A stretch of DNA of 64,000 nt, taken from positions 2,480,001 through 2,544,000 of the forward strand of contig NZ_LT629781.1 in assembly GCF_900105685.1 (NCBI RefSeq), given 5' to 3'. Source of the DNA: Verrucomicrobium sp. GAS474. GTDB taxonomy: Bacteria; Verrucomicrobiota; Verrucomicrobiia; Methylacidiphilales; GAS474. Below are positions 36,653-55,264 of this stretch, piece after piece (position 1 is the stretch's first letter; every line of letters starts with the position of its first letter). Under the pieces are notes generated by a model. The model had not been told where the DNA came from. It searched no databases and saw nothing but the letters and a program-made list of their open reading frames with translations. Position numbers and translations under genes: made by a program.

Positions 36653-38134
36653 TTGATTACACCCAGCCAAATTCGAGATTGGTTCATCATCTTTCTGAGC
36701 ATGGTTCTGGCTTGCTATGTCGCGACCCAGATCGCCGACGGGGGCTTGGCCTCTTTCTTCCCTTTGCTGGGAATCGGCATCGGAGTGGTATGGGTGTTTT
36801 TTGGCGGGAGCGTCTGGTGGCTTCCCTTGTTCGCGGGAATGGGAATCGGAGGGGTGTTTTATTTTGGTTTCAAGGTCCATCCATTCGAGGTTGGTTTCTT
36901 TCTTTCCTTGGCGGCGGCGCTGCCCCTGATCGCGATGCGGGCGGGTCAACCGCTTGCGCATCGCTCTTTGCCCCGCGGGTTGCTGCTTTTCTTGTTCTTC
37001 ATCTGCCTTGAAGCAGGGTTTTCATGTGCTCGTTTCAGCGGAGGAAGCACCCGGGATATGGGGTCAATCCTTAGGATTTATCTGAAGGAGTTTTGGGCTC
37101 CTTTTTTTCTCCTGGTTTTTTATTACTACGGAAAGAGCCGGTTCATCGCGGTGGGGTTCTATGTGCTGGAATTCACCTATTTGATTCGTTTGCTCATTGG
37201 GATGGTTGCCGTCTTTATCCCGAATTTCACCTACCTGCCGGGAGTGAATATGATTCTTCCTGCCTCTGGGGTAAACGGCACCGACGATCTCCGGGCTTCG
37301 GGATTGGGGCTCGCGATGGTTGCAATGATGATGAGCTTTTATCAAAAAGGATGGCTATTTTCCATGCTCCAACGACTGGCTTTTATCGTTGCGCTCATTG
37401 GAGTTGGATTTGGAGGCGGTCGTGGGACGTTGGTTGGATTGCTGATGGCAGTGGTCTTGTTTGCACTTTTTTCCCGAAGGAAATCGATGCTTTGGGGAGC
37501 GGCGGTATTGATCTTCGCGATCATTTGTCTTCTCAATCTGAAGCCAGAGTTGATGGATGGTTTGAATCCTAAAATTCAACGCACGGCTTCCATTCTGATC
37601 GTTAATTTTGAAGGAGTTCGTGGAACCGAATTCGGCCAGACGAAGGAGGGATTGGAGGGGGATCTGAGTACGAATGACTGGCATCATCGCCTGGCTCAAA
37701 TTGGTCGGGAAAGATGGACGGCGAATCTTCCGAATTTCCTCTTCGGAACGGGCATCCGTTCTTATGATGAAACTGCCCTCAAGGAACCCGATCCCAAGGT
37801 GCAGTTTGCTCTCGCTTTGAACTCTTCGGCGGATACTGCGGCCTATGAGGACGGGCTGTGGACGGTTCTAGCGACGTCCGGGCTGGTGACGCTCGTTTTT
37901 TACGTGGTTCTTTTTGGAGGATTTATCAGGAAAATTATCGAGCTTTCTCCCATCATGGGGCGGACGCCATTCGGTCGCTCACTGGTCTTTCTCTCGACAT
38001 TTGTGATCGTCGATTGGGTTGCCTTTTGCTATTGGCAGGGTGGCTTCCCGTCGTATGAATTGATGGTTGTTGGGGCGACGGTCGTCTATCTTCAGGATTA
38101 CGAGGCGGAATTCAAGGCGAAGGAGGAGGCATGA
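36653..38134 (+). CDS. O-antigen ligase/polymerase-like membrane protein
   Basis: A 493-residue integral membrane protein with ~11 hydrophobic helices and a large periplasmic loop at ~305-395 (QRTASILIVNFEGVRGTEFGQ ... NDWHHRLAQIGRERW ... FLFGTGIRSYDE). The GFGGGRGTLVGLL segment before the loop is the usual signature of the Wzy/WaaL O-antigen polymerase-ligase group. It starts with TTG at 36653; the ATG at 36701 is an alternative. The ATGA at its end overlaps the exosortase start. Confidence 0.8.
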   Translation: MITPSQIRDWFIIFLSMVLACYVATQIADGGLASFFPLLGIGIGVVWVFFGGSVWWLPLFAGMGIGGVFYFGFKVHPFEVGFFLSLAAALPLIAMRAGQPLAHRSLPRGLLLFLFFICLEAGFSCARFSGGSTRDMGSILRIYLKEFWAPFFLLVFYYYGKSRFIAVGFYVLEFTYLIRLLIGMVAVFIPNFTYLPGVNMILPASGVNGTDDLRASGLGLAMVAMMMSFYQKGWLFSMLQRLAFIVALIGVGFGGGRGTLVGLLMAVVLFALFSRRKSMLWGAAVLIFAIICLLNLKPELMDGLNPKIQRTASILIVNFEGVRGTEFGQTKEGLEGDLSTNDWHHRLAQIGRERWTANLPNFLFGTGIRSYDETALKEPDPKVQFALALNSSADTAAYEDGLWTVLATSGLVTLVFYVVLFGGFIRKIIELSPIMGRTPFGRSLVFLSTFVIVDWVAFCYWQGGFPSYELMVVGATVVYLQDYEAEFKAKEEA

Positions 38135-39141
38135 AAGATCGATTTCTAGTGTTTTGCAAAACTCCGTGGATGGCGGCCTTTCAGGTGGCGATCGCCTTTT
38201 TAGGGCTGTATTTCTTTCTTCCCTATCTCGTCGGGTACAGTGCCCAACGAGATACCGTCTTCCGGAGCATCTGGAGCGGGGCTTGGGTCTATGATCAGGG
38301 GGAGTGGCGGTATTGCTTCTTTGTTCCGGTGATCGTTTTCTGGATGGTCTGGTCGAGGCGTGAGGGGTGGGCGGGGTTTGTTCCGGTGCCGGCGCGGTCG
38401 GCGGTTTGGCTTTCGATGCTGGGGGCCTCTCTCGGGCTTTACTGGATCGGCTATGTGGTCGGCGTGAGTTATGTGGGGGATCTTTCCTTCCATCTGTTCA
38501 TCGGGGCGATGATTCTCGGTTTCCTGGGGGTGGAAGCGTTCCGGCGGTTGCTCTCTCCCTGGCTGTTCCTCCTGTTCGTCTATCCGATGCCGTTCCTCGA
38601 CAACATGGTGGCGTTTCCGCTGCGGATGGTGATGACGAGCGTCGCCCACGTGGTCCTCTCGCTCATGGGGCTGGCCAATGTCCAGGTGGGAACGGCGATT
38701 CTTTCGGCGCCGAAGCCTTTTCAGGGGATCGGCATGGGGGAGGTCTTCAGCATCGACGTGGCCGATCCGTGCAGTGGGATTCGCTCGCTCTTCGCGCTGT
38801 TGATGATGGCGGCCCTGTATGGATATTTCACGTTGCCGGGCGGCTGGCGACGGGGGGCGTTGGTGGCGCTGGCGGTGCCGCTGGCCCTGATCGGGAATGT
38901 GGTGCGGATCGTCCTCCTGGTGTTCGGGGTCCTGATCGGCGGCGCTCCGTTCGCCATCGGAACGCTCGAGCAGCCCTCGATGTTCCATGAGGGGGTCGGT
39001 CTGGCGGTCTATGGGGTGGCGTTGGGAGGCCTGGTTCTTTCCGCCGGATTGCTCGATCGGGTGGGACGCCGGAAAAAAGGAGGGAAGCCGTCCGATCCCG
39101 CGCCGACTCCGGCACCCGATCAAGGGAATCCGACGGCGTGA
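38131..39141 (+). CDS. xrt: Exosortase/archaeosortase family transpeptidase
   Basis: A 336-residue inner-membrane protein with ~8 helices and the complete exosortase catalytic triad: C214 in DPCSGIRSL, R259 in GNVVRIVLL and H286 in SMFHEGVG. Exosortases process PEP-CTERM-type sorted proteins, often with exopolysaccharide export. It is translationally coupled to the polymerase-like gene before it and to the recombinase gene after it (4-bp overlaps on both sides). GC content climbs back to host level within its first ~90 codons. An EpsI-like partner is encoded 15 kb away at 54569-55264. Confidence 0.92.
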   Translation: MKDRFLVFCKTPWMAAFQVAIAFLGLYFFLPYLVGYSAQRDTVFRSIWSGAWVYDQGEWRYCFFVPVIVFWMVWSRREGWAGFVPVPARSAVWLSMLGASLGLYWIGYVVGVSYVGDLSFHLFIGAMILGFLGVEAFRRLLSPWLFLLFVYPMPFLDNMVAFPLRMVMTSVAHVVLSLMGLANVQVGTAILSAPKPFQGIGMGEVFSIDVADPCSGIRSLFALLMMAALYGYFTLPGGWRRGALVALAVPLALIGNVVRIVLLVFGVLIGGAPFAIGTLEQPSMFHEGVGLAVYGVALGGLVLSAGLLDRVGRRKKGGKPSDPAPTPAPDQGNPTA

Positions 39142-41415: not shown

Positions 41416-44067
41416 ATGAGAGGACGTTTTGAGCGGATCCTGGGGCTCGCGATTCTCTTGCCGCTGATGGCGGCTCCCGACCTTCTCCGGGCCGAATCTC
41501 GGGCGCTCGTCGTCGCCGGTCTTTCGGGTGGGGGAAGCGACCAGGAGCTCCTTCAATCCCTCGCGCAAAAGACGAAGCAGGGTCTCGTCCAGCGCGGTTT
41601 TGCCGATGCCAACGTCGTCGTCCTCGGCATATCAGAAAAGGAAAAGGCGAACCGCGCCGCCGTCCTCGCCGCCCTGGGTGCGGCCCGCTCCCTGAAGCCC
41701 GGCGACGAGTTCTGGCTTGTCCTCCTCGGCCATGGCGGGCGCGACGCCGAGGGCGGTCCGCTCTTCCAGCTCTCCGGCCCCCGCCTCGCCGCCGCCGACC
41801 TGAAGGGCGCCCTCGATGCGATTCCGGCGCGGCAGTTCGTCTTCGTCGGGAGCGAGGAGAGCGGCGGCTACGCCTCCCTCCTCCTCCAGCCCAATCGGAC
41901 CGTCCTCACCGCCACGCGGGGGGAAGGGGAGGTGAACCAGCCCCGCTTCCCCGAAGCCTGGGTCGCCTCGCTCCTGGAGGGGCCGGGCGATCCGCCCGCC
42001 GCGATCGCCGCCCGGGCCTCGGAGAAGGTCGAGCAATACTACGCGCAGAACCAGCTGGCCCGGGGTGAGCACGCCCGCCTCGGCGATGCGGCGAGCGGGA
42101 AAATCCTGGAGGCTCCATTCGGTGTCGACGGAACGGCGAAGTCGGCGCAGGCCGACGCGCGGCCCGGGGCCGACGGGCCGACCCGGCTGATCACCGCTTC
42201 CGACATCGAGATCCCGATCCGCGATCCGAACGCCGAGTGGGAGACCCACTCCCCGACCGCCGAGAACAAGAATCTGATCGCCGCCGCCGCCAAGGCCCCG
42301 AATCCCGAAGGCTACGCCGCCGTGATGCTGGAGAAGCGGCTCGCCTATTCGGTCGATGCCGACCGGACGACGGAGCGGGTCTACTTCCACCGCGTCTACC
42401 TCGCCCGCGAGGAAGGGGTCGAGGCCTGGTCGAATTACCTCCTCCCCCAGGCCCCGCCCGCGACGACGACGAAGCTCCAGGTCGCCCGGGTGATCGAACC
42501 CGACGGCTCCTCGATCGTCTTCAATCCCGCCAAGCTGCCCGCGGCGAGCGATTGCTCCTCCGGCCTCTGCGGGGCGCAGACCGTCGTCTACCTCCCGCAG
42601 GTCCGCGCTGGCTGCGTCGTCGAGATCGGGTACAAGACCCGGGAACTGCTCGACGCGACGCTCCCGGAGTTCAGCGCCGAGATCCCGCTCCAGGAAAACG
42701 CCCCCGTCCTGAAGACGACCCTCGTCGTCCGCGTCCCCGAGAAGCAGCCGTTTCAGGTCCGCCTGAACAACCTCCCCGGCCCGCCCTCCAATCCCGAGGC
42801 CCAAAACGGTTGGAAGACGACGTCGTGGGCCCTGGGGCCGCTCGAGCCGCTCTCCCCCCTCCCGTTCGATCCGCCCCGCCGCGAGTTCGCCGTCTGGCTC
42901 GGCCTCACCTCGTTCCGCTCGTGGGACGACTTCGCCCTCTGGTACCGTCGGCTGGCGCAGGGTTCCGACGTCATCGACGAGACGGTCCGGAAGAAGGCGA
43001 AAGAACTCGCCGCCTCCGCTCCCGACCGCGCGGGCCGGATCAAGGCCGCTTACAGCTTCGTCTCCGCGCTCCGCTACGTGGCGGTCGAGATCGGCGTCCA
43101 GGGCTTCCGCCCCCGCACCCCCGCCACCGTCCTCGCGAACCGCTACGGCGATTGCAAGGACAAGGCGAACCTCCTCTCCGCCCTCCTCACCTGCATGGAT
43201 ATCGAGGCCTATCCGGCCCTCGTCAACCGGGGCTCCTCGACCGACGTCACCTTCCCCTCGTGGCAGTTCAATCACGCGATCTGCTTCGTCCCGAAGCCGA
43301 AGCGGGCCGAGGCCGGGCAGGCGGACGACCTCTGGCTCGACGCCACTGACGGCATCGCTCCGTTCGGGATTCCCGCCCCCGGCGATGTCGCTCGCTCCGC
43401 CCTCGTCTTCTACAAGGATGTGGCGAAGTTCCAGACCGTGACCCTCCCTCCCGGGGCCGCCTCGGCGAGCGGGAGCGTCGAGGAATGGGACCTCCGCGAC
43501 AACGGCACCGACGGCTGGACCGGCACCGTGAAGTCGACCCCCTCCGGCCTGACCGATTACGAGCGCCGGGCCGGGCTGCGCGGGGCGACGCCCCGGCAGC
43601 GGCGGAACGTCGTCGCCTCGATCTTCTCGGAGCCCTTCCCGGGTGGCGACTTCTCCACCTTCACCTGGGGGAACCCCGACGATCTCTCGACGCCCATGGT
43701 CCTTCAGGCGGCGGTGACGTTGTCTGCCGCTCCAGGGCATCTCCCTGCGGCCGGGGCGGGCCATTGGCTCGCCGCCTTCGCCGAGGCCGACCGGGAGCGG
43801 CCCATGCTCCTCAACGACGGCCAGCCGCTCCGTTTCCGCCAGGTCATCCGCTACCACTTCGCCCAGCCCCGGGAGGGAACTCCTCCCGCGCCGTTCTCCG
43901 TCCAGGCGGGCGGGGAGGCCCTCTCCGTCACCTGGACCCTCCGCGATGCGAAGACCTGGGAGCGCGAGGCCGTCCTCGACCTCCGGCAAACCCGCATCGC
44001 CCCCGCCGATTACCGCTCCATCCGCCGCGCCTTGAAGGACTGGGCTGTCGCTCTCCAACCCCTTTGA
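41416..44067 (+). CDS. DUF3857-transglutaminase protein with an N-terminal pseudo-caspase domain
   Basis: An 883-residue exported protein with a signal peptide to ~27. Residues ~28-210 resemble a caspase/C13-type fold: LLVLLGHGGRD (H106) is present, but the motif expected as D-x-C-x-S-G reads FVFVGSEESGGYAS, with E148 in place of the nucleophile. This domain is therefore probably non-catalytic. A DUF3857 domain follows (~300-470). The transglutaminase-like core has all three catalytic residues: C580 in YGDCKDKANLL, H620 in FNHAICFV and D642 in LWLDATDG. First gene of a seven-gene operon with MoxR and DUF58. Confidence 0.82.
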   Translation: MRGRFERILGLAILLPLMAAPDLLRAESRALVVAGLSGGGSDQELLQSLAQKTKQGLVQRGFADANVVVLGISEKEKANRAAVLAALGAARSLKPGDEFWLVLLGHGGRDAEGGPLFQLSGPRLAAADLKGALDAIPARQFVFVGSEESGGYASLLLQPNRTVLTATRGEGEVNQPRFPEAWVASLLEGPGDPPAAIAARASEKVEQYYAQNQLARGEHARLGDAASGKILEAPFGVDGTAKSAQADARPGADGPTRLITASDIEIPIRDPNAEWETHSPTAENKNLIAAAAKAPNPEGYAAVMLEKRLAYSVDADRTTERVYFHRVYLAREEGVEAWSNYLLPQAPPATTTKLQVARVIEPDGSSIVFNPAKLPAASDCSSGLCGAQTVVYLPQVRAGCVVEIGYKTRELLDATLPEFSAEIPLQENAPVLKTTLVVRVPEKQPFQVRLNNLPGPPSNPEAQNGWKTTSWALGPLEPLSPLPFDPPRREFAVWLGLTSFRSWDDFALWYRRLAQGSDVIDETVRKKAKELAASAPDRAGRIKAAYSFVSALRYVAVEIGVQGFRPRTPATVLANRYGDCKDKANLLSALLTCMDIEAYPALVNRGSSTDVTFPSWQFNHAICFVPKPKRAEAGQADDLWLDATDGIAPFGIPAPGDVARSALVFYKDVAKFQTVTLPPGAASASGSVEEWDLRDNGTDGWTGTVKSTPSGLTDYERRAGLRGATPRQRRNVVASIFSEPFPGGDFSTFTWGNPDDLSTPMVLQAAVTLSAAPGHLPAAGAGHWLAAFAEADRERPMLLNDGQPLRFRQVIRYHFAQPREGTPPAPFSVQAGGEALSVTWTLRDAKTWEREAVLDLRQTRIAPADYRSIRRALKDWAVALQPL

Positions 44068-44090: not shown

Positions 44091-45149
44091 ATGCCCAACG
44101 AACTCCTCACTCCCGAGCCGAACGTCGCCCCGAACTCCAGCCTGAATCCGGTCGCCAACGCCGAACCGACCGCCGCCGACGTCGAGCTCCTCCGCACCGT
44201 TCCCGAGCGCTATCGCCTCCTCAAGGCCGAGCTCGGGAAGCGGATCATCGGCCAGGATATGGTGATCCGGGACCTCTTCGCGGCGCTACTCGTGCAGGGG
44301 AACGTCCTCATGGTCGGCGTCCCCGGGCTGGCGAAGACCCTTCTCGTGAAAAGCCTCGGGGAAACCCTCTCCCTCAGCTTCAACCGGATTCAGTTCACCC
44401 CCGATCTCATGCCGAGCGACATCACCGGCACCGAGATCATCGAGGAGACGAGCGACGGGCGGCGGGAGTTCCGCTTCATTCCCGGCCCGATCTTCGCGAG
44501 CCTCCTCCTCGCCGACGAAATCAACCGGACCCCGCCGAAGACCCAGGCCGCCCTCCTGGAGGCGATGCAGGAACGGCGCGTCACCGTCGCCGGGAAGACC
44601 TACGACCTTCCTTCGCCCTTCTTCGTCCTGGCGACCCAGAATCCCATCGAACAGGAGGGAACCTATCCGCTTCCCGAGGCGCAGCTCGACCGCTTCATGT
44701 TCAACCTCGTCCTGAAGTATCCCTCCCGCGCCGAGGAGGTCCGCATCCTCCTGGAAACGACGCGCGGGAGCGACGGCCCCCTTTCCCCCGTCCTGGCCGG
44801 GGCCGACATCGCCGCCCTCCAGCAGGCCGTCCGCCACATCCCCGTCCCGGCCTCGGTCGCCGAATATGCCGTCGACCTCGTCCAGGCCACTCGGCCCGGG
44901 CCCGGGACGGGAGCCCCCGACGTCGTCCAGAAATACCTCCAGTGGGGGGCCGGTCCCCGGGCCTCGCAGTATCTCGCGCTGGCGGGGAAGGCGCTCGCCG
45001 TCCTCGACGGGCGATTCAACGTGGCGCGGGAAGACATCGCCGCCGCCGCGCCCCTCGTCCTCCGCCACCGCCTCATCACGAACTACCGCGCCGAGGCCGA
45101 CAAGGTCACCTCCGACACCGTCATCGAGAAGCTCCTCGCCCGGGGCTGA
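44091..45149 (+). CDS. MoxR family AAA+ ATPase
   Basis: A 352-residue ATPase, chaperone-like, with Walker A GVPGLAKT (76-83), Walker B LLLADEINRTPPKTQAALLEAMQE, sensor 1 LATQNPIEQEGTYPLPEAQLDRF and a lid domain. MoxR proteins remodel or activate partners with VWA domains, and such partners are encoded just downstream. ATG at 44091 begins 23 bp after the transglutaminase stop. Confidence 0.93.
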   Translation: MPNELLTPEPNVAPNSSLNPVANAEPTAADVELLRTVPERYRLLKAELGKRIIGQDMVIRDLFAALLVQGNVLMVGVPGLAKTLLVKSLGETLSLSFNRIQFTPDLMPSDITGTEIIEETSDGRREFRFIPGPIFASLLLADEINRTPPKTQAALLEAMQERRVTVAGKTYDLPSPFFVLATQNPIEQEGTYPLPEAQLDRFMFNLVLKYPSRAEEVRILLETTRGSDGPLSPVLAGADIAALQQAVRHIPVPASVAEYAVDLVQATRPGPGTGAPDVVQKYLQWGAGPRASQYLALAGKALAVLDGRFNVAREDIAAAAPLVLRHRLITNYRAEADKVTSDTVIEKLLARG

Positions 45150-45181: not shown

Positions 45182-46132
45182 ATGACCGCCGTCCCCGCCA
45201 CCGTCTTCTCCTCCGCCCCGCGTCCTGGGGGTGAGGTCGACATGGGGCTCCTGGCCGATCTCCCCGGGCTGGAGCTCCAGGCGCGGTGCGTCATGGACGG
45301 CTTCCTCGCCGGGCGGCATCGGAGTCCGCGCCAGGGATCGTCGGTCGAGTTCGCCGAATACCGGAGCTACCAGTTCGGCGACGATCCCCGCCGCATCGAC
45401 TGGCGGCTCTACGGACGGACGGAGCGCCTCCACGTGAAGCGCTACGAGGAGGAGACCCAGCTTCGGGTCATCCTGATCCTCGACGCCAGCGCCTCGATGG
45501 ATTACCGCTCCCGCGAGGGGCTGCTCACGAAGCTCGATTTCGCCCGGATCACCCTCGCCGCCACGGCGCTCCTGGCGAAGCGGCAGCAGGACGCCTTCGG
45601 CCTCGCCGTCGCCGGGCCCGCGCCCCTGGAGGTCCTCCGCGCCCGCTCCTCGGCCCCCCATTGGCGGACCTTCCTCGGGCGGCTCCAGGGGGTCGAGACG
45701 GGCGGCGAGGTTCCCCTCGCGGCGACGCTGGAGGAGATCGCCGAGACCCTGCCCCGCCGTTCCTTGGTCGTCATCGCGAGCGATTTCTACGACGAGACCG
45801 AGGCCCTCGCCGGGGCCCTCCGACGGCTGCGGCACGACCGGCACGACGTCGTCGGCCTCCAGATCTGCGATCCCTTCGAGCTCGATTTCGCCCTCGACGC
45901 GCAGGGGACCTTCGTCGACCTCGAAAGCGGCCAGCGCCTCCTCCTCGATACCGAGGCGGTGCGGGCCGGATACCTGGAACGCTTCGGTGCCTTCCGGGCC
46001 GAGCTGGCGGCGACGTTCCGCGACGTCGGGGCGGGATTCGAGACTCTCTCGACCGCCCGGGCTCCCCTGGACGCGCTCACCGCCTACCTCGCCATTCGAC
46101 AGGGTGGGCAGGGCGGGGAGGGGAGGCGATGA
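45182..46132 (+). CDS. DUF58 (VWA-like) protein
   Basis: A 316-residue soluble protein. SSVEFAEYRSYQFGDDPRRIDWRLYGRTERLHVKRYEEE is the DUF58 signature, followed by a VWA-like metal site LILDASASMDY. DUF58 proteins are regular partners of MoxR ATPases. The ATGA at its stop overlaps the next start. Confidence 0.9.
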   Translation: MTAVPATVFSSAPRPGGEVDMGLLADLPGLELQARCVMDGFLAGRHRSPRQGSSVEFAEYRSYQFGDDPRRIDWRLYGRTERLHVKRYEEETQLRVILILDASASMDYRSREGLLTKLDFARITLAATALLAKRQQDAFGLAVAGPAPLEVLRARSSAPHWRTFLGRLQGVETGGEVPLAATLEEIAETLPRRSLVVIASDFYDETEALAGALRRLRHDRHDVVGLQICDPFELDFALDAQGTFVDLESGQRLLLDTEAVRAGYLERFGAFRAELAATFRDVGAGFETLSTARAPLDALTAYLAIRQGGQGGEGRR

Positions 46133-48219
46133 GCTGGCTCCTTCCCGGCTTCCTCGCGGGGGCGCTCGCCATCGGCCTCCCCATCGCCCTCCACTTTCTG
46201 CGGAGCAAGCCGACCGTCGTGATCCCGTTCCCGACCCTCCGCTTCCTCGGCCCCACCGCGCTGCGCGAGACGAAACGGAACCGGCTCCGCCGCTGGCTCA
46301 CCCTGCTGCTCCGGTGCCTCGCCATCGCCCTCCTTGCCGCAGCCTTCGCCCGCCCCTTCTGGGCTTCGACCCCGTCGGGCGGCGGGAAGGCGGTCCTCGT
46401 CGTCGTCGATAATTCGATGAGCATGCAGGCCTCGGGACGATGGGAATCGCTGAAGAGCCAGGCCGTCGCCGCCCTCGACGGCCTCCAGCCGGGAGACCGC
46501 GCCGGGGTCCTCCTGATGAATCCCTCCTCCCAGTGGCTCGTCCCCATGGGGGACCAGACCGAGGCGGCGCGGAACGCCCTCCGCGCCCTCCAGCCCGGTT
46601 ACGAGACGACGCGCTGCCAGGGCGCGCTCCGGCTGGCGGGCGATGTCCTCTCGCGGCAGCCCGAGAAGGAGAAGCGGCTTTTCTGGATGTCGGACGAGCA
46701 GCGCCTCGGCTGGGCCGGGACGAATTTCGGCCAGGCGCTCCCTCCCGGCGTGAAGCTGAACCTGACCGCCCCCCGTCCCGAACCGGCCTCCCAGGCTGCC
46801 ATCACCGGCGTCACGATCAAGGGAGAGGCTCCCGCCTTCCAGGCCGAGGTCACGATCCGCCTCTATACACCCGCCAGCGAAGCCCGGGAGCGGACGATCA
46901 CGATCTTTGAGATGGGGAGCGCCGGAAAAGTCGTGGGAAAGAAGACCGTCTCCCTCAACGGCAGGGAACCGGCCTCCTTCACCGTCCCGCTCGATCTTCC
47001 GCCGGGGCCCTCCGCCCTGCCCGCGGGCCTTCGCGTCGAACTCGATCCCGATGACCTTCCCGCCGACGACCGTTTCTATCTCAGCCTCGGCGGCGGCGGG
47101 CAGAATGGCCTCTCGGTCTCGCTCGACGCCGTCCCGGGGGTCGATTATCTCGCCCACGCCCTCCATGCCGCGAAGCTTCCGGCAGGCGCGCCGCAGGCCC
47201 AGGCCCTGCCAGGCGGGGAAGCGGAATGGCCCCGGGGGATCGCCGTGCTGCGCGGAGAGGAGGCTTTCCTCCCTCCCCAGGCGGCGAAGCTGGAACGCTT
47301 TCTCCGCAACGGCGGCTCCCTCTGGATCTTCGCCGACGGCGGACCGGCCCAGGCAGGCTGGCTGAAGGCGCGGGGAGTCGTCATCGAGCCCCTGCCCCTC
47401 TCTCCCCCGGCCTCCGATCCGGCTTCGGCCGGCGATCCCCGGCATCTGCGCGATTGGGACCCGGAGCATCCGCTCCTCGCGGCCTTCGTCCATGAAAGCC
47501 TCCTGCCCCTCCTCCAGGCCGAGTTCCGCCGCCCCTACGCCCTCCGCGTCTCCCCCGCCGCCGCCGACCGGATCGCCGCCTGGGACGAGGGCAGCCCGGC
47601 GGTAGTCGAGTTGAGCGCGGCGGGCCCGGCCGGGCCGGGTGCATCGGCTGGCGGGCGGATCTTGCTTTGCGGCTTCGGCTTGAGCCGGGAGGAAACCGAT
47701 TGGCCGATGAAGGCCTCATTCGTCCCCTTCGTCGATCAGGCCATCCGCTGGCTGGCCGCCGCCCGGGAGGGGCGTCGCGCCTGGCAGATCGGCGAAACCA
47801 TCCCGCTTTCCCTTTCCCTCGGGGCGGGGGAGGGGAAGGGTTCGGCCTCCTCGCTCTGGACCGCCCTCGATACGCCCCGCCCCGTCCCGCCACAGCGGGT
47901 CGGCAACGCGGTCCGCCCCACCGTCCCCGGCCTCTATCGTTATGACGCCGGGGACGGGACGCCTTCCCGGATCTTTGCGGTCAACGTCCCGACCGAAGAA
48001 TCGGACCTCGCCCCCTGGCCCGAATCCGAGGTCGAAAGGCTGACCTCGCTCCAATCGAAAAAAGAGGCCGAGGCCGCCGCCGCGCCCTCCGTCGCCACCA
48101 CCCGGCTGAGCGACGAGACCGAGGAAGCCCGCCAGCGTTTCTGGTGGTGGCTCATGGCCGGGGCCGCCCTCTGCCTCCTCGGGGAACTCACCCTCGCCAA
48201 CCGGACCTCCGCCTCATGA
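46129..48219 (+). CDS. BatA/VWA-type membrane protein
   Basis: A 696-residue protein. The N-terminal double transmembrane module (FLAGALAIGLPIALHFLRSKPTVVIPFPTLRFL and WLTLLLRCLAIALLAAAFARPFW) is the TIGR02226-type BatA start. A VWA domain follows, with metal site VVVDNSMSM; the canonical D-x-S-x-S reads D-N-S-M-S. A long periplasmic region, including a glutamine-amidotransferase-like part (~340-560), and a final C-terminal helix complete it. It sits between DUF58 and DUF4175-like genes with 4-bp overlaps. Confidence 0.82.
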   Translation: MSWLLPGFLAGALAIGLPIALHFLRSKPTVVIPFPTLRFLGPTALRETKRNRLRRWLTLLLRCLAIALLAAAFARPFWASTPSGGGKAVLVVVDNSMSMQASGRWESLKSQAVAALDGLQPGDRAGVLLMNPSSQWLVPMGDQTEAARNALRALQPGYETTRCQGALRLAGDVLSRQPEKEKRLFWMSDEQRLGWAGTNFGQALPPGVKLNLTAPRPEPASQAAITGVTIKGEAPAFQAEVTIRLYTPASEARERTITIFEMGSAGKVVGKKTVSLNGREPASFTVPLDLPPGPSALPAGLRVELDPDDLPADDRFYLSLGGGGQNGLSVSLDAVPGVDYLAHALHAAKLPAGAPQAQALPGGEAEWPRGIAVLRGEEAFLPPQAAKLERFLRNGGSLWIFADGGPAQAGWLKARGVVIEPLPLSPPASDPASAGDPRHLRDWDPEHPLLAAFVHESLLPLLQAEFRRPYALRVSPAAADRIAAWDEGSPAVVELSAAGPAGPGASAGGRILLCGFGLSREETDWPMKASFVPFVDQAIRWLAAAREGRRAWQIGETIPLSLSLGAGEGKGSASSLWTALDTPRPVPPQRVGNAVRPTVPGLYRYDAGDGTPSRIFAVNVPTEESDLAPWPESEVERLTSLQSKKEAEAAAAPSVATTRLSDETEEARQRFWWWLMAGAALCLLGELTLANRTSAS

Positions 48220-51200
48220 GCCTGCCGCGCCTCCCCTTCCAGGATTCCCCCTCCCATCCCGTCGAGCGGATGCTGAAGCGCCGTCATCGCACGGGCCGCT
48301 GGCTCCCGGCGCTCGCCGCCCTTTCGCTCGGCCTCGGCGGCACCCTCGCCGCCGTCTGGGTCGCCCACGGCCATTCCAATCCGGGCCGGGTCGATGCGGT
48401 CTGGGGGGAGGGCCTCGCGCTCACGCTGGTCGCCGTCGTGGCGGGGATCGCCTACGGTCGTCGTCGGCATCAGCCCGCCCGCACCGCCGCCGCCCTCGAC
48501 GAGGCCCTCCACGCGAAGAATCGGCTCGAGGCCGCATCCCAGCTGACGGGACGCGATCACGCCCTTGCCGAGGCCCAGCGCGAGGAAACCGCCGCCTTCC
48601 TCCAAAAGGAATCGCCCCGCGCCCTCCGCCCCGGCCTCGATTGGGTCGTCGGCCTCGCGGGGACGGCGGCGGCGCTCCTCCTCTTCCATGCGGCGACCTT
48701 CACCGTATGGGAACTCCGCGCCCCCCATGCGAAGGAGCCGCAGGCGAGCCCGGCCAACGCCCCCCAGGCCGAGATCGCCTGGCGCTCCCCCTCGGCGGAG
48801 ACCAAGGCCTCGCCGATCGACGAGGTCTCCCTCCGCGCCGCCGCCACCTCGACGACCGGGCTCGATACCCTCCGCCTCGAGGTCGAGGTCAACGGCGAGC
48901 CGCGCAAGACCATCCCGCTCGCCCCGTCGGCGATCAAGGAAGGGAAGGTCGACCTCTCCCTCCCCCTCGACCTCGACGAGCTCGAGCTCCAGCCCTACGA
49001 CATGGTCTCCTACTACCTGGCCGGAATGCGGGTGACGCCGAAGCCCTCCGTCCCGCCCCTCGCCGCCACCGTCTCCCCCGTCCAGTTCATCCAGATCCGG
49101 CCCTTCCACGACGACGCGAGGGTGGGGCAGGGGGGGGCGGGAACCAGCTACAACCTCGTCGTCGAGCTGAAGTCGGCCCAGCTCCGGGTGCTCAAGGAAA
49201 ACTTCACCCTCGCCCATGCCGACATCGCCCGGGAGAACCCGGCGTGGCGCGACGAAAACAGCCGGGTCGGCGCGGAGCAGGATGCGCTGGCCCGGAAGAC
49301 CGCCGAGGTTGTCGAGAAATTCACCCAGGACGGCCTCCCGGCCCAGATCGTCTACCTCCTCCAGCAGGCCCACGACTTCATGCCGCCCGCCTCGAAGCAG
49401 ATCCTCGCCGTCAAGAACACCGAGGCCCTCTCCGGCCAGGGCAAGGCCTTGGCCGCGATCACCGAGGTCGAGAAATACTTCACCAAGGTGATCGCCCAGG
49501 GAGGGAAGGGGAGCGACAAGACCAAGGCCGCCGATCCCTTCAAGGACGCCCAGAAAATGGAACTGCCGAAGCGGCAGGATACCCCCGCCGGGATGCTCGA
49601 AAAACTGGCAAAGGAACAAGGCCGACTCGCCGACGAGTTGTCGGGCAAGGCACCCCAGCCGACTCCCTCGGCGGGCTCGGCGTCCACTTCGGCGTCGTCC
49701 GGAACGGCGGCTGCGTCGTCGCCGACCACGGCCAATGCACCGGCCCCGGCCCTCCCCCCTCCCGCGATCAAGCCGGGGATCGAGGCCGAGACCTTCACCG
49801 GTACCCCTTCCGAACGGCAGACCCTGGTCAGCCAGGGCATCTCCTCCCTCCTCAACGGGAAGAAGCTTCCCGATCCCGTCACGGCCCACCTCGACCGGGC
49901 CCGCCTCCAGGCCCTCGCCTCGCTGAAGCAGCTCGACGCCGGGGACAACGCCCGGGCCCGCGAACCGGCCTCGGCGACCGCCGCCGCCCTCCAGGCGGCG
50001 CTCGACGAGATGAACAAAGAGGGACAGGAACAGGCGAAGAAAGACCTGGCCGATGCCCAGTCTCTCCTCAACGACGCGGCCCAGAAGGCCGCGCAGGCGG
50101 GCGATCCCGCCAAGGCCGATTCGGCCCAGGCCGCCGCCGAAAAGGTGAGCGAGGCCCATCAGCGCCTCCAGGAGGAGGCGTCGAAGCAACAGGAAACCGG
50201 TTCGGCCAAACAGGCGCAGAAGTTGAACGACCTTGCCGACTCTGTCGCGGCGAGTCAGGCGAAGCGCGATCTTCAGGAATTGAAAGCCCTCGGCGAACAG
50301 GCGAAGGCGGCGACCCTTTCCGGCGATGTCCAGGCGATCCCCGCTCTCCAGGCCAAAGCGGCGCAGGTCTCGGCCCGCCTGCAGAACCTCGCCGCCGAGG
50401 CCGCGCGCAAGGCCCAGGACGGAGCCCCACAAGGGGCCGAACTCGCCCAACTCGCCGCCGGGCTCGAACAGAGTCGCGCCACCCTCGCCCGCCTGGCGGC
50501 GGCCTCCGCCTCCACCACGGGAAAGAGTCCCGCCCCCGGCGCCTCCCCAGGCAAGGACGGAGCAGGGAAGGGAACCGACCCCGGCAAAGGCCAAGGCACC
50601 CAGCCCGGCCCAGGCCAGCAGGGAGAGGGCCAGGGAGAGCAAGGCAAAGGCCAAGGCCAGCAAGGTCAAGGCCAGGGCCAGGGCGATGGCGCTTCCCCTG
50701 CCGAGGACGGTCAAAAAAAGGAAACGCCCCCCGGCAGCGGTTCCGGTCCCAATTCCAGCGGCGATGGAAAAGGCAGCGGCGGCGGCTTGAATCCCGGAGG
50801 CCGTGGCTTGGCCGCGATGTCGGCGGCGCAGCGCGATGAAATCGCCCGCACCGTCCAGGCCGAGCTTCGCAGCCAGCTCCAGCAGGCCGAGGCGCTCCTT
50901 CAGCCGCACCAGGAGAGCGCCGCGCCCGTCACTCCCGCCGGAAAGACCCCTCCGCCCACCTCACCTACGGGGACGACCGCGAGCGGCACCGCCGCCATGC
51001 AGACGCTGAAGAAGACCCTGAGCGACAACTATGCGCCTGTCCTCGTTCCCTACGAGAAGATCGCCCCGCCGCTCGACGACCTCATTCGCTGGATCCACTC
51101 GGAGATGGCCAAGGCGACGCGGCAGGAACTCCTCTCGACCGACGATCCCGCCCGCGCCCCCGCCGCCTATCGCGACGCCGTCGCCGATTACTTCGAGCGT

Positions 51201-51269
51201 CTCTCGAAGGATTATGACCGGGCCTCCGCACCGCCCCCCACCCCGGCAGCCAAGCCGGCCGCGCCATGA
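48216..51269 (+). CDS. DUF4175-like coiled-coil membrane protein with Gln/Gly-rich tract
   Basis: A 1017-residue protein. Two N-terminal hydrophobic helices (~28-50 and ~65-80) and one at ~150-165 anchor it. Beta-rich segments (~180-310) follow, then long Ala/Gln/Lys-rich helical regions with coiled-coil character (~480-770) and a low-complexity Gly/Gln/Pro/Lys tract (~790-870). DUF4175-like proteins hold the same place in MoxR-DUF58-VWA operons. Role unknown; it may be a stalk or scaffold in the envelope. Overlaps both neighbours by 4 bp. Confidence 0.7.
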   Translation: MSLPRLPFQDSPSHPVERMLKRRHRTGRWLPALAALSLGLGGTLAAVWVAHGHSNPGRVDAVWGEGLALTLVAVVAGIAYGRRRHQPARTAAALDEALHAKNRLEAASQLTGRDHALAEAQREETAAFLQKESPRALRPGLDWVVGLAGTAAALLLFHAATFTVWELRAPHAKEPQASPANAPQAEIAWRSPSAETKASPIDEVSLRAAATSTTGLDTLRLEVEVNGEPRKTIPLAPSAIKEGKVDLSLPLDLDELELQPYDMVSYYLAGMRVTPKPSVPPLAATVSPVQFIQIRPFHDDARVGQGGAGTSYNLVVELKSAQLRVLKENFTLAHADIARENPAWRDENSRVGAEQDALARKTAEVVEKFTQDGLPAQIVYLLQQAHDFMPPASKQILAVKNTEALSGQGKALAAITEVEKYFTKVIAQGGKGSDKTKAADPFKDAQKMELPKRQDTPAGMLEKLAKEQGRLADELSGKAPQPTPSAGSASTSASSGTAAASSPTTANAPAPALPPPAIKPGIEAETFTGTPSERQTLVSQGISSLLNGKKLPDPVTAHLDRARLQALASLKQLDAGDNARAREPASATAAALQAALDEMNKEGQEQAKKDLADAQSLLNDAAQKAAQAGDPAKADSAQAAAEKVSEAHQRLQEEASKQQETGSAKQAQKLNDLADSVAASQAKRDLQELKALGEQAKAATLSGDVQAIPALQAKAAQVSARLQNLAAEAARKAQDGAPQGAELAQLAAGLEQSRATLARLAAASASTTGKSPAPGASPGKDGAGKGTDPGKGQGTQPGPGQQGEGQGEQGKGQGQQGQGQGQGDGASPAEDGQKKETPPGSGSGPNSSGDGKGSGGGLNPGGRGLAAMSAAQRDEIARTVQAELRSQLQQAEALLQPHQESAAPVTPAGKTPPPTSPTGTTASGTAAMQTLKKTLSDNYAPVLVPYEKIAPPLDDLIRWIHSEMAKATRQELLSTDDPARAPAAYRDAVADYFERLSKDYDRASAPPPTPAAKPAAP
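50584..50691 (+). repeat. Low-complexity coding repeat (Gly-Gln/Lys-Gly-Gln)
   Basis: Imperfect 6- to 12-bp units built on GGCAAAGGCCAAGGC / GGCCAGGGC encode runs of G-Q, G-K and G-E in the DUF4175-like protein. This is a protein-level linker rather than a CRISPR or intergenic repeat, and it is likely to vary in length between strains. Confidence 0.7.
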
Positions 51270-53689
51270 GTTTCCCTCCCTCCCTCACCGGCACCGCGTG
51301 GGAATGGCAGTTCGGCGGCTTCCTCCACACCCTCCCGCCCCTCTGGGGCTGGACGATCCTCGGCGTGGCCGCCGTTATCGGGACGGGGGCGGTGTTTCTT
51401 TCCTACTTCCGTTCCCTGCGCCCCCTTCCGTTGCCGCAGCGGCTCGCCCTCATCACCCTCCGTCTGACGCTCCTCTTCGCGCTCCTCCTCTTCCTCGCCA
51501 ATCCGGCCCGCGTCGAGAGGAAGCGACTCGATCTTGACGCGCAGCGCCCCCTTGCCGTCCTCATCGACCGGTCCGCGAGCATGGAGGAGGCCGACAACCG
51601 CTCCGAAACCCGCCTCCAGAATGCGGCGAAGGCCTGGAACCAGCTTCGCCCCGAAGCCGAGGAGGCCTATCGCCACCTCGCCTACTTCCGCTTCGGGACC
51701 TCCCTCTCGCCCGCCTCCGGTCCCGAGGAAGCCTTCGCCCCGACGACCGCCGGGGCCGAGACCCATCTCTACTCGGCCCTGCAGGAATTGTTGAAGAACG
51801 CCCCCGCGGGCGGCTACGGCGGGATCGTCTGCCTCACCGACGGCCTCGACACCACCTCGGCGGCGGTCGCTCCCGTCGTCGCCGCCGCCCTTCCGGCGGG
51901 AACGCCCCTTTACTTCGTCGTCGGGAGTAACCGGACCCCGGTCCGCGAGGCCTGCTTCCTGCGAGAGATCAAGGTGCCGCCCGTCGCCCTCCGGCGCTCC
52001 CTCTTCCACTTCGAGGCGCTCCTCCACGTCACCGCCGCCAAGGCGGGAACCTGCCCGGTCACCCTCCGCAACGGGGAGACGGTGCTGGAGTCCCGCAACG
52101 TCCCCGTCCGCTCCGGGCTGAACATGATCCCGCTTTCCTTCGACGTCACCGCCGCCGATCCCGGGACGATGGCGCTCGATCTCCAGGCGGGGAACGAAGG
52201 CGGCGGGATTCTCCAGGACCGGGCCGGGGCCGACGTCCGCGTCGTGGAGCAGCGGGCCGTCCGTGTCCTCTTCTATCAGGGCGCGATGCAGTGGGGATAT
52301 AACTTCTTCGTCTCCGCGTTGAGGGACGATCCCGGCTTCCGCCTCGACGCCATCCTCCACCCGGCCGAAAACGTCCGGACCACCTTCAGTCAGGAGGGCA
52401 ACGACGTCCCGCCCGAACTCCCCGACCAGGTCGAGCCCCTGAAGAAGTACGACATCGTCGTCCTCGCCCACGTCTATGCCGACCGTATTTCCCAGGCCCA
52501 GCAGAAGGCCCTCGCCGATTACGCCCGGGGTGGCGGCGGCATCCTCTTCGTCGCCCCCGACGACGCCTCCAGCCGTCTCTTCACCGGGACCGCCTTGGAA
52601 CAGATGCTCCCCGCCGTCTTCGAGCCGCCCCCGACGATCGACGCGGCGACCGAGGCCGAGCTCCGTTTCCGGGACAAGATGAAGGCGCTCGGCGGCTCGA
52701 ACGGGAAGCAGGAAAGCGCCTTCGCCGCCGAGGTGATGGAGACGCAGAAGCTTCCGGTCCTCCTCGGCTTCGCCGTTCCCGAAGGGCTCCGCCTCTCCCC
52801 GCTGATCGCCACCCTGGGCGGCCTCGGTAGCGCGGGGAGTGGCGGGAGTACCCCGAACGATCGTCCCATGTTCACCGATTACACCCGCCTGAAGGGAGCG
52901 AAGGCCGGGGCCGAGATCCTCGCCGTCCATCCGAGTGATCGGGGGGCGACCGGCGCCCCGCGCGTCCTCATGGCCCGGCAGACCTTCGGTCGCGGCGCCG
53001 TGACTCTCCTGGCCACCGATCTCCTCTGGCGCTGGAAGATGTCGCTCCCTCCCGACAGCCGCCGTGTCGAGACCTTCTGGCAGCAGCTCCTTCTCGCCCT
53101 CGCGGCCCCGCCGCCGGTCGGCCTCCATTTCGTGAAGCAGGCCTCCTCCTTTGCGCAGGGGAAGGCGGCGGCCCTTCGTCTGGAAGGGGGAACCTCGCCC
53201 TCCGTCACCGCCCTTTCTCCGTCCAACCGCCGCGTCCCGCTCGCCGTCGCCGAGACGGGAGCGGGCGGGTGGACCGCCTCCTTCCAGCCCGACGAGCCGG
53301 GCCGCTGGCAGATCCGCGCGGAATCGGCCGTCGCCCCGGGAGCCGATGCCGCATCCCAAACCGCGCCTGAAAATGCTCCCGAAGCCGCCCACATCGACGC
53401 CTTCGTCTCCGACGCCACGACGACCCAGGAACTCTCCGGCCAGCCGCCCGACATCGAAGGCCTCCGCCACCTCGCCGAGGCGACCGGCGGGACCCTCCTC
53501 GAAAGCGGTACGGGATTGCGCTCGTCGAACGAGACCGCTCCTTCATCGGGCGACGGGGGGAGGGGATTGGGCGGCCTGCCCGCCGTCGAGCGGGTCGTCC
53601 CCCTCTGGGACCGGCAATGGCTCCTCGCCTTCTGCCTCGTCCTCTATGCCGTCGAGCTTCTCTGGCGGAGGCGCCGCCGCCTCCTTTGA
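51266..53689 (+). CDS. VWA/glutamine-amidotransferase-like membrane protein
   Basis: An 807-residue protein with two N-terminal helices (~30-48, ~60-80), a VWA site LAVLIDRSASMEEA (~96) and a class I glutamine-amidotransferase-like domain (~350-600) without an obvious catalytic Cys. The C-terminus ends in a helix (LLAFCLVLYAVELLWRRRRRLL). Such proteins close the BatA-type MoxR clusters of Planctomycetota and Verrucomicrobiota. Overlaps the previous gene by 4 bp. Confidence 0.8.
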   Translation: MSFPPSLTGTAWEWQFGGFLHTLPPLWGWTILGVAAVIGTGAVFLSYFRSLRPLPLPQRLALITLRLTLLFALLLFLANPARVERKRLDLDAQRPLAVLIDRSASMEEADNRSETRLQNAAKAWNQLRPEAEEAYRHLAYFRFGTSLSPASGPEEAFAPTTAGAETHLYSALQELLKNAPAGGYGGIVCLTDGLDTTSAAVAPVVAAALPAGTPLYFVVGSNRTPVREACFLREIKVPPVALRRSLFHFEALLHVTAAKAGTCPVTLRNGETVLESRNVPVRSGLNMIPLSFDVTAADPGTMALDLQAGNEGGGILQDRAGADVRVVEQRAVRVLFYQGAMQWGYNFFVSALRDDPGFRLDAILHPAENVRTTFSQEGNDVPPELPDQVEPLKKYDIVVLAHVYADRISQAQQKALADYARGGGGILFVAPDDASSRLFTGTALEQMLPAVFEPPPTIDAATEAELRFRDKMKALGGSNGKQESAFAAEVMETQKLPVLLGFAVPEGLRLSPLIATLGGLGSAGSGGSTPNDRPMFTDYTRLKGAKAGAEILAVHPSDRGATGAPRVLMARQTFGRGAVTLLATDLLWRWKMSLPPDSRRVETFWQQLLLALAAPPPVGLHFVKQASSFAQGKAAALRLEGGTSPSVTALSPSNRRVPLAVAETGAGGWTASFQPDEPGRWQIRAESAVAPGADAASQTAPENAPEAAHIDAFVSDATTTQELSGQPPDIEGLRHLAEATGGTLLESGTGLRSSNETAPSSGDGGRGLGGLPAVERVVPLWDRQWLLAFCLVLYAVELLWRRRRRLL

Positions 53690-53740: not shown

Positions 53741-54550
53741 ATGCCCGACCTCTCCCGGCAAGAATTCCTCCGCCTGATGGCCTTCGGCGGCGCTTCCTTC
53801 CTCGGCCTTCCGACGCTCCGCTCGCTGGCCCAGCCGTTCCAGGTTCAGGACCCGGCCGCGCCCCGGGGCCTCGTCGCTCCGTGGAGCCGCCTCAAGTTCA
53901 ATTGCGACAACGGCGGGGCCCTCGACGACGACGATTGGTCGGTCCACCCGAACGGCGACCTCAACCTCCTCGACGGCATCCGGGATCAGGCCGGGATCAA
54001 CGTCACGCGGCATTGGAACGTCGCCGAGATTGCCTCGATCGACACGATGACTCCGTTTCCCTTTCTCTTCATGCATGCGGAGCTTCCCCCCGAGTTCGCC
54101 GATTCCGAGCGGCAGAACCTGCGCGATTACCTCCTGCGGGGCGGCTTCCTCTTCGCCGAGGATTGCGTCATCGGCAAGGGACGAAGCCACCAGGGCAATC
54201 GCGGCGATCTCTTCTTCCAGCGGATGGCGGCGGAGCTGCCGAAGATCGTCCCCGAGGCGAAGTTCGAGAAACTCCCCTTCGACCATCCCGTCTTCCACTC
54301 CTTCTACCACATGAAGAACGGCATGCCCCACATGCAGGGGAAGCCGTGGGGCCTCCACGGCCTCACCTTGAACGGGCGGGTGCTGGCGGTCCTTTCCCCC
54401 TCGGACAACCATTGCGCCTGGACCAACGGCGACGCCTGGTTCGGCCACGAGAAGCAGCAACAGGCGATCCAGATGGGGACGAATATCTACGTCTACGCGA
54501 TGACGCAGACCGGCCAGGCGACGCCGGGTGTCCCCGGGCCCCAAGTCTAG
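53741..54550 (+). CDS. DUF4159 family protein
   Basis: A 269-residue exported protein. N-terminus SRQEFLRLMAFGGASFLGLPTLRSLAQ looks like a signal sequence, Tat-like in layout but with only one arginine. The DUF4159 core includes KFNCDNGGALDDDDWSVHP, FPFLFMHAELPPEFADSERQNLRDYLLRGGFLFAEDC and a C-terminal GTNIYVYAMTQ. DUF4159 often ends MoxR-DUF58-VWA operons. Function unknown. It begins 51 bp after the previous stop. Confidence 0.85.
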   Translation: MPDLSRQEFLRLMAFGGASFLGLPTLRSLAQPFQVQDPAAPRGLVAPWSRLKFNCDNGGALDDDDWSVHPNGDLNLLDGIRDQAGINVTRHWNVAEIASIDTMTPFPFLFMHAELPPEFADSERQNLRDYLLRGGFLFAEDCVIGKGRSHQGNRGDLFFQRMAAELPKIVPEAKFEKLPFDHPVFHSFYHMKNGMPHMQGKPWGLHGLTLNGRVLAVLSPSDNHCAWTNGDAWFGHEKQQQAIQMGTNIYVYAMTQTGQATPGVPGPQV

Positions 54551-54568: not shown

Positions 54569-55264
54569 CTATCGGGGCGGATCCTGAAACGTCGGGAGCG
54601 CCCCGGCGATGAATTGCCGCAGCATGTCGAGGGTCTGCTCGGGATTTTTCCCGCCGGGAACCAGTCCTTCGGTGATCGGGGCGAGGACATAGACATAGGC
54701 CCAGCGATGGTTCCGGTGATGGACCACCCGATCCCAGCTGGTCAGCCAGATCCGCCGCCAGTGGAGCGGCGTCGTCACCCCGTCGCCGACATACCAATAA
54801 AGAAGGTAAGCCCGGAGGGTGACCTCGGTGCCGTCTTTCAGGCGGATAGGGCGGGTGATCGTGAGGCGGGTCGCCTTGAGGTCGGGGCCCGCGTCGGCAA
54901 GGGGGATCGGGACGATGTCGGAGGCCTTGATCGTCCAGCCCTGGCCGGGGAGGCAGATCTCCGGGCGATGGATGCTCCGCTTCTCCGCCCCGGCCAGGAC
55001 GATGCTGGCGAGGATCGCCTCGCCCGTGAAATTCTGATACCGCTTCCGGACGATCTGGGTGTCGGGGGGGAGGATCTTTTTTTCCGCCTCGGAACTCGGC
55101 TCCGTCTGGCCGCTCCAGAGGCCGACTTGGTCGGGGAGCAGGAGGCGGACTCCCGCGTGGGAACTCTCGTTGGGCGGCGAGGTGAGAAGGCAGAGGGCGA
55201 CGGTAAGGCCCGAAAGGGCGAGGACGGCCAGGGAACGGAGCAGCAGAGTCCGGGAAAGATCCAT
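54569..55264 (-). CDS. epsI: EpsI-like exosortase-associated protein
   Basis: A 231-residue protein with one N-terminal membrane helix (LRSLAVLALSGLTVALCLLTS). The conserved EpsI segment RSIHRPEICLPGQGWTI (~94-110) and the YWYVGDGVTT part are present. In many bacteria EpsI is fused to, or adjacent to, an exosortase. Here it is separate and 15 kb from the only exosortase gene in the window, convergent with the DUF4159 gene. Confidence 0.82.
   Translation of the reverse strand: MDLSRTLLLRSLAVLALSGLTVALCLLTSPPNESSHAGVRLLLPDQVGLWSGQTEPSSEAEKKILPPDTQIVRKRYQNFTGEAILASIVLAGAEKRSIHRPEICLPGQGWTIKASDIVPIPLADAGPDLKATRLTITRPIRLKDGTEVTLRAYLLYWYVGDGVTTPLHWRRIWLTSWDRVVHHRNHRWAYVYVLAPITEGLVPGGKNPEQTLDMLRQFIAGALPTFQDPPR

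Follow-up and report, generated by a model that had tools for sequence, protein, structure and literature searches.

Organization of the Locus

The window analyzed here is a stretch of 64,000 nt from Verrucomicrobium sp. GAS474 (GCF_900105685.1, contig NZ_LT629781.1, 2,480,001-2,544,000, forward strand). Among its genes is one for an 883-aa protein of composite domain structure, in which the following features were recognized:

41416..44067, + strand: 883-aa protein made up of a pseudocaspase, DUF3857, a transglutaminase-like core, and a C-terminal, mostly beta region (ORF, Pfam, model)
41491..42129, + strand: caspase/legumain-fold domain, aa 26-238 (AlphaFold2 and structure comparison)
41731..41733, + strand: His106, at the catalytic His position just after strand 3 (alignment and model)
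41854..41856, + strand: Glu147, at the catalytic Cys position just after strand 4 (alignment and model)
42067..42069, + strand: Glu218, nearly invariant whether the domain is fused or standalone (alignment)
42364..42849, + strand: DUF3857, aa 317-478 (Pfam, E 7.2e-12)
43153..43155, + strand: Cys580 of the transglutaminase-like triad (31/31 fused relatives)
43273..43275, + strand: His620 of the triad (31/31 fused relatives)
43339..43341, + strand: Asp642 of the triad (31/31 fused relatives)

The original prediction described a caspase-like domain with an HG motif (H106) and a Glu in place of the nucleophile in FVFVGSEESGG; the reading frame and these residues are all present as given, the motif spanning aa 141-151 and the Glu being residue 147, and no Cys within the motif of the window protein fills the nucleophile position. 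The hydrophobic N-terminus is likely a signal peptide, and the protein is probably secreted. Pfam names nothing in the first 240 residues, and NCBIfam names nothing in the protein, the caspase domain included.

In the remainder of the protein, DUF3857 scores 46.1 bits against a Pfam cut-off of 24.6, while Transglut_core (aa 527-598) falls below its own (18.6 versus 23). The Cys-His-Asp triad and transglutaminase-like fold of DUF3857-transglutaminase proteins are nevertheless found in the model and alignment, and the triad is intact, as had been claimed. The best Foldseek match of the full-length model is the DUF3857-transglutaminase BDI_1141 (PDB 3kd4; E 1.4e-29, 597 columns), whose chain of 505 aa, unlike the window protein, would seem to leave no room for an extra domain of caspase fold.

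The genes that follow on the same strand encode components of a MoxR/VWA system:

44091..45149, + strand: MoxR AAA+ ATPase, the next gene (AAA_3, 9.7e-63)
45182..46132, + strand: DUF58 protein (Pfam)
46129..48219, + strand: protein with BatA N-terminal and VWA_2 domains (Pfam, NCBIfam)
48216..51269, + strand: 1017-aa protein with no Pfam match (ORF), provisionally termed DUF4175-like
51266..53689, + strand: 807-aa VWA-like protein (VWA_2 and ThuA matches weak, below cut-off)
53741..54550, + strand: DUF4159 protein (Pfam)

With the start codons chosen in this analysis, 23 bp separate the pseudocaspase gene from moxR, 32 bp separate moxR from the DUF58 gene, and 51 bp lie between the genes for the 807-aa and DUF4159 proteins; the BatA-VWA, 1017-aa, and 807-aa genes each overlap the preceding gene. 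A DUF3485 gene lies beside the operon (54569-55264, - strand), and upstream of it is a gene for what we take to be an exosortase-like protein (38131-39141, + strand).

Predicted Fold of the N-Terminal Domain

An AlphaFold2 model of the domain, built without templates from 14 sequences of the caspase domain (that of the window protein plus 13 taken from the 14 loci of an all-phyla pattern scan), has a mean pLDDT of 90.2 and a pTM of 0.88. Legumains head the Foldseek ranking (7fql_E, E 3.7e-8), metacaspase 9, MALT1, and caspases 7 and 9 appearing lower down, and VIA-align superposes the model on Arabidopsis metacaspase 4 (6w8r_A) with a Z of 20.0 over 200 residues and on legumain (4nol_A) with a Z of 19.5 over 185 residues; among the 50 matches listed, clan CD structures give Z values of 16.9-20.0 over 178-200 residues. 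Because fold prediction and structure comparison both support a caspase fold, the likeness to caspases goes beyond an HG that could occur by chance. The proposed caspase-type fold and its N-terminal placement were thereby borne out, whereas the length of ~180 residues suggested for it was too short, the domain extending to about residue 238.

The full-length model (pLDDT 81, pTM 0.62) places strand 3 at aa 98-104 and strand 4 at aa 139-145, and hence His106 and Glu147 just after them, where they occupy the positions of the clan CD dyad. The domain has in common with the clan CD peptidases (legumain, C13; metacaspase and caspase, C14) the predicted caspase/hemoglobinase fold, the His after strand 3, and the C-x-S-G register, but the His-Cys dyad is incomplete: His106 is present, whereas the catalytic Cys of the clan is replaced by Glu147 in the window protein and never occurs among 109 relatives. 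The relationship is scarcely visible to sequence searches. Neither Pfam C13 nor C14 matches the 883-aa protein at E up to 1, and Peptidase_C13 matches 7 of 50 relatives at that threshold (best 3.8e-5). Searched against solved structures, the domain sequence found nothing significant (best E 0.32, GSU0716), and neither did the 50-domain profile (best E 0.15, a designed-type chain).

The Nucleophile Position Among Relatives

Relatives were collected by genome searches within the phylum of the window, together with the all-phyla pattern scan, which reached the fused type only. A six-domain profile matched in 88 of 384 genomes of the class (E 1e-4) and a 50-domain profile in 42 of 387 genomes of the phylum (E 1e-3), both counts including some distant outgroup proteins. 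All of the listed profile-search matches but one, plus the 14 pattern-scan loci, were aligned to one profile (130 rows); removal of 10 duplicates and one truncated row left 109 family rows (at least 38 bits) and 10 outgroup rows (below 38 bits), the cut having been set in this analysis across a thin gap (38.6 to 34.5 bits). Although the search seeds were Cys-less, a profile match does not hinge on a single residue, and relatives with Cys did surface below the cut.

At the nucleophile column, the 109 unique relatives carry S (65), T (12), A (10), P (6), R (5), N (4), E (3), G (3), or D (1), and Cys in none; a near relative that kept the Cys, for which an alignment of homologs had been proposed, is therefore rejected. 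The His column holds His in 94 of the 109, namely in 20 of the 31 relatives fused to a transglutaminase and 74 of the 76 that stand alone. Glu147 itself is not the important residue, as Glu is found in 3 of the 31 fused members. In contrast to the family, 7 of the 10 lower-scoring outgroup rows have His and Cys, three of these seven being near-copies from one genome; their motifs include DACNSGG in L186 and DCCESGS in L189, and the column is gap-free at the motif (VVRIDA[C]NSGGFV in outgroup L186 against FVFVGS[E]ESGGYA in the window protein). A quick tree splits nine of the 10 outgroup rows from the rest (SH-aLRT 98). The Cys-bearing L207, on a very long branch (2.38), groups with the large family at an unresolved fork, so that a single loss of the Cys is not established. 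Very large proteins with a caspase-like domain, of which L187, L189, L205, L206, and L125 keep His and Cys and the related L188, L203, and L204 have lost both, were also seen; their open frames are of 1146-2798 aa, some being cut by contig ends.

Conservation lies elsewhere in the domain. Across the fused sequences (31), conservation at the nucleophile column ranks 166 of 204, with nine residue types, and that at His106 ranks 74. The 30 most conserved positions include G105 (31/31), E218 (30/30 aligned), R123, L124, A166, T167, and E172, the last three being identical in 26, 25, and 22 members, respectively. Residues 166-172 follow strand 5 and so correspond to loop L5, which is, with L1 or helix 1, L3, and L4, one of the regions described as inhibitor-binding in family C14, TbMCA2 excepted (PMC4357240). 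Judged by how strands and loops follow one another, the conserved residues of the fused forms would line one pocket.

The standalone forms carry further motifs. An EF-hand-type loop (DLDKDGQTSLLE and similar) occurs in 69 of the 76, where shuffled sequences would give 0.34, and a second motif of D-x-N/D-G-D type in 57 of 76, where they would give 0.96; neither occurs in any of the 31 transglutaminase-fused members. Pfam EF-hand_5 matches 7 of 50 members, weakly. The standalone forms are accordingly predicted, from these motifs, to bind calcium.

Layouts and Gene Linkage

The 109 members occur in three layouts, 31 being fused to DUF3857-transglutaminase, two to an ECF sigma factor, and 76 standing alone, and 105 of them have a hydrophobic segment ahead of the domain. 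The window domain is 35-52% identical to nine fused relatives. ECF fusions are rare. Both distinct ones (L131:8113-9642 and L135:8104-9630, the latter from the same genome as L054) comprise an ECF sigma factor, with Sigma70_r2 and r4 above cut-off, a hydrophobic segment, and a Cys-less caspase domain in one protein, and their genes lie directly before moxR. L137, counted as standalone, shows no more than a weak sigma region 4 match. In L140 (1995-2921), one ORF holds part of a caspase domain and DUF4159, either through a deletion fusion or an assembly error.

Linkage to the MoxR/VWA genes holds across these layouts. A core gene of the set is present on the same strand for 27 of the 31 transglutaminase-fused members, both ECF-fused members, and 72 of the 76 standalone members. 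For three of the four fused members that lack one (L134, L138, and L185), the sequence piece is short or truncated; the fourth, L110, is on a long contig with no core gene in the fetched stretch and is a true exception. No core gene was found in the fetched stretches of the standalone L093 and L200. The gene for moxR lies 0.5-2.2 kb downstream (center to center, same strand) of 24 of 31 transglutaminase-fused and 2 of 2 ECF-fused members. Standalone genes follow directly after a VWA-like gene in 64 of 76 cases, the gene in that position in other genomes being a relative of the 807-aa protein of the window, and precede moxR directly in eight; two of the remaining four begin at a contig end. VWA-type proteins may cross-match in these counts, because the gene labels rest on profiles built from hits in these very loci. 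For 20 standalone loci with extra upstream sequence, MoxR was present in 11 and not found in nine.

As to number per gene set, the 130 fetched loci contained no second such ORF, these loci being at most 19 kb, so that far genes are often outside. The transglutaminase-fused genomes of the class have one match each genome-wide by the six-domain profile search; in G188, G244, G288, and G366, all of which have standalone members, there are two each, and G537 has one transglutaminase-fused and one standalone member in different places. In the genome to which the window belongs, the C13 and C14 profiles found no active peptidase, and no active caspase partner is therefore proposed.

Distribution

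Within the order the domain is patchy, occurring in 6 of 62 genomes at E 0.01, and the same search found none in two other genomes of the genus. By their titles, the records reached by the pattern scan are from Verrucomicrobia, Spartobacteria, Opitutaceae, Puniceicoccaceae, and a Methylacidiphilaceae MAG. One record (L136, G039) is titled as betaproteobacterial, probably wrongly, as its genome is placed by search in the same order as the window. A plasmid search found one standalone relative on a Gemmatirosa plasmid (53% over 138 aa), adjoining VWA-like, DUF4159, MoxR, DUF58, and BatA genes, so the standalone form exists in at least one other phylum. This relative (L250:11811-13681) is split across two overlapping reading frames.

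Comparison With Known Systems

Bacterial caspase-fold proteins lacking the His-Cys dyad have been described as pseudo-orthocaspases, in which Tyr and Ser replace His and Cys and of which 90% are in Alphaproteobacteria and Cyanobacteria (Klemencic et al., 2019, PMC6426788). The window family resembles them in lacking the dyad but differs in mostly keeping the His and in being tied to one gene set, in a search nearly confined to its own phylum. The window domain itself has no C14 match, and its dyad positions hold His and Glu instead of the Tyr and Ser of a pseudo-orthocaspase p20 domain.

In MoxR-vWA ternary conflict systems, too, a single cluster brings together a MoxR AAA+ protein, its vWA partners, and domains of the caspase superfamily (PMC7159879). 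The MoxR and vWA pair is common to both; unlike the conflict systems, the window operon has a caspase fold without a nucleophile, placed after a hydrophobic N-terminal segment, and partners of the BatA, DUF58, DUF4159, and DUF3857-transglutaminase types. Pfam names no VMAP, iSTAND, FtsH, or beta-propeller third component in the operon. The window MoxR passes the bpMoxR cut-off (34.7 versus 27), but AAA_3 scores far higher, and anti-phage models (PADLOC) gave no match here. The literature searched, mostly without subscription papers, yielded no description of the family treated here and no mention of DUF4159.

Functional Interpretation

With about even confidence, we read the N-terminal domain as a non-catalytic, exported module for ligand binding, docking, or sensing within the MoxR/VWA system. 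On this reading, the caspase/legumain-fold domain would be exported together with the transglutaminase-like enzyme, would bind a ligand through the former substrate groove by loops L3 and L5, and could present the bound peptide or protein to the neighboring transglutaminase or to the VWA proteins, and would in this way supply the ligand-binding or docking function of a MoxR/VWA (BatA) machine linked to the membrane. Such a module accounts for the data better than a functionless remnant or a regulator dedicated to the transglutaminase, because in the fused forms the catalytic site varies while Glu218 and parts of the groove loops are fixed, and because linkage to the same genes persists irrespective of the attachment. 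A purely binding role would not require the His, and its retention in most fused and nearly all standalone forms speaks against one. Also counting against the reading are the nine extended standalone loci in which MoxR was not found, the members L110, L093, and L200, for which the fetched stretches contain no core gene, and the two genomes of the genus that lack the domain.

The original prediction of a dead caspase joined to a live transglutaminase in a MoxR-VWA operon thus stands as regards fold, triad, and operon, but the fusion on which it centered is one of several layouts. The domain also stands alone beside VWA-like or moxR genes and is carried by an ECF sigma factor in two members, which makes the MoxR/VWA gene set a likelier partner for it than the transglutaminase itself; a substrate-binding or regulatory role, as first suggested, is what we infer for it. 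A more ambitious version, advanced tentatively and with rather less confidence, is that this caspase-fold lineage is a non-proteolytic receptor of a periplasmic MoxR/BatA machine, with one exported pseudocaspase per gene set and an output that changes with the attachment, be it a transglutaminase-like enzyme or a sigma factor anchored in the membrane, or with a standalone form that binds calcium and has a fixed His and usually a Ser.

Bat-type MoxR/VWA operons are widespread, and to our knowledge their substrates are mostly unknown. A MoxR/VWA-linked pseudocaspase with a changing fusion partner would point to a component that recognizes substrate or signal, and offers a small soluble domain with which that substrate or signal might be fished out. 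The family also represents a sizeable group of bacterial caspase folds that lack the protease residue and are mostly missed by common profiles.

Among other explanations, the domain could be a cis-acting autoinhibitory or positioning element of the transglutaminase-like enzyme, comparable to a prodomain and without a separate role. Its place directly N-terminal to DUF3857-transglutaminase in 31 of 109 members, all with an intact triad, agrees with this, but 76 members stand alone and two are on a sigma factor, mostly beside the same genes, and we consider the explanation unlikely. That the domain is a drifting, functionless relic is less likely again: both dyad columns do vary in the fused forms, yet the fold is confidently predicted, near-invariant non-catalytic residues persist among relatives of the identity given above, and the domain is retained in fused, standalone, and sigma-factor forms.

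The standalone relatives could instead be active through a His-Ser dyad, the transglutaminase-fused ones being degenerate. In the 64 that follow a VWA-like gene, His is present in all, Ser in 55, and E218 in 60 of 61 aligned, and the nucleophile column is far better conserved (rank 44 of 209) than in the fused forms. Ser is found at the column in 60 of the 76 standalone forms overall; the other 16 have A, T, or P, and 15 of these keep the His, which shows that the His is kept without the Ser. We know of no caspase-fold enzymes with a Ser nucleophile and regard this explanation as improbable, though standalone forms with their fixed His and frequent Ser may retain some chemistry. Recruitment of another nearby nucleophile is very improbable: Ser149 of the S-G motif is conserved in 24 of 31 fused members and 60 of the 64 standalone members after a VWA-like gene, but the same Ser accompanies the Cys in outgroup L186 (DACNSGG) and so has a structural explanation, and Cys residues within six positions of the site among the 109 members (-2 in 12, +1 in 6, -3 in 5, -1 in 2, and -6 in 1) are scattered, most members having none.

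Returning to the reading as a binding or docking module, a sensing role would be expected where the standalone forms carry a calcium-type loop and where the domain is joined to an ECF sigma factor through a hydrophobic segment, and the latter arrangement is possibly a membrane-anchored signaling device in one protein. The sigma-plus-hydrophobic half of this fusion recurs in 107 of 196 genomes (E 1e-20), with at least seven copies in the richest genome. Among the matches listed, most stop before query residue 300, a few reach 305-358, and the query's own gene alone spans the caspase domain. The open frames of such matches, for example L211-L229, are of very different length, and it therefore seems that their C-terminal domains are swapped.
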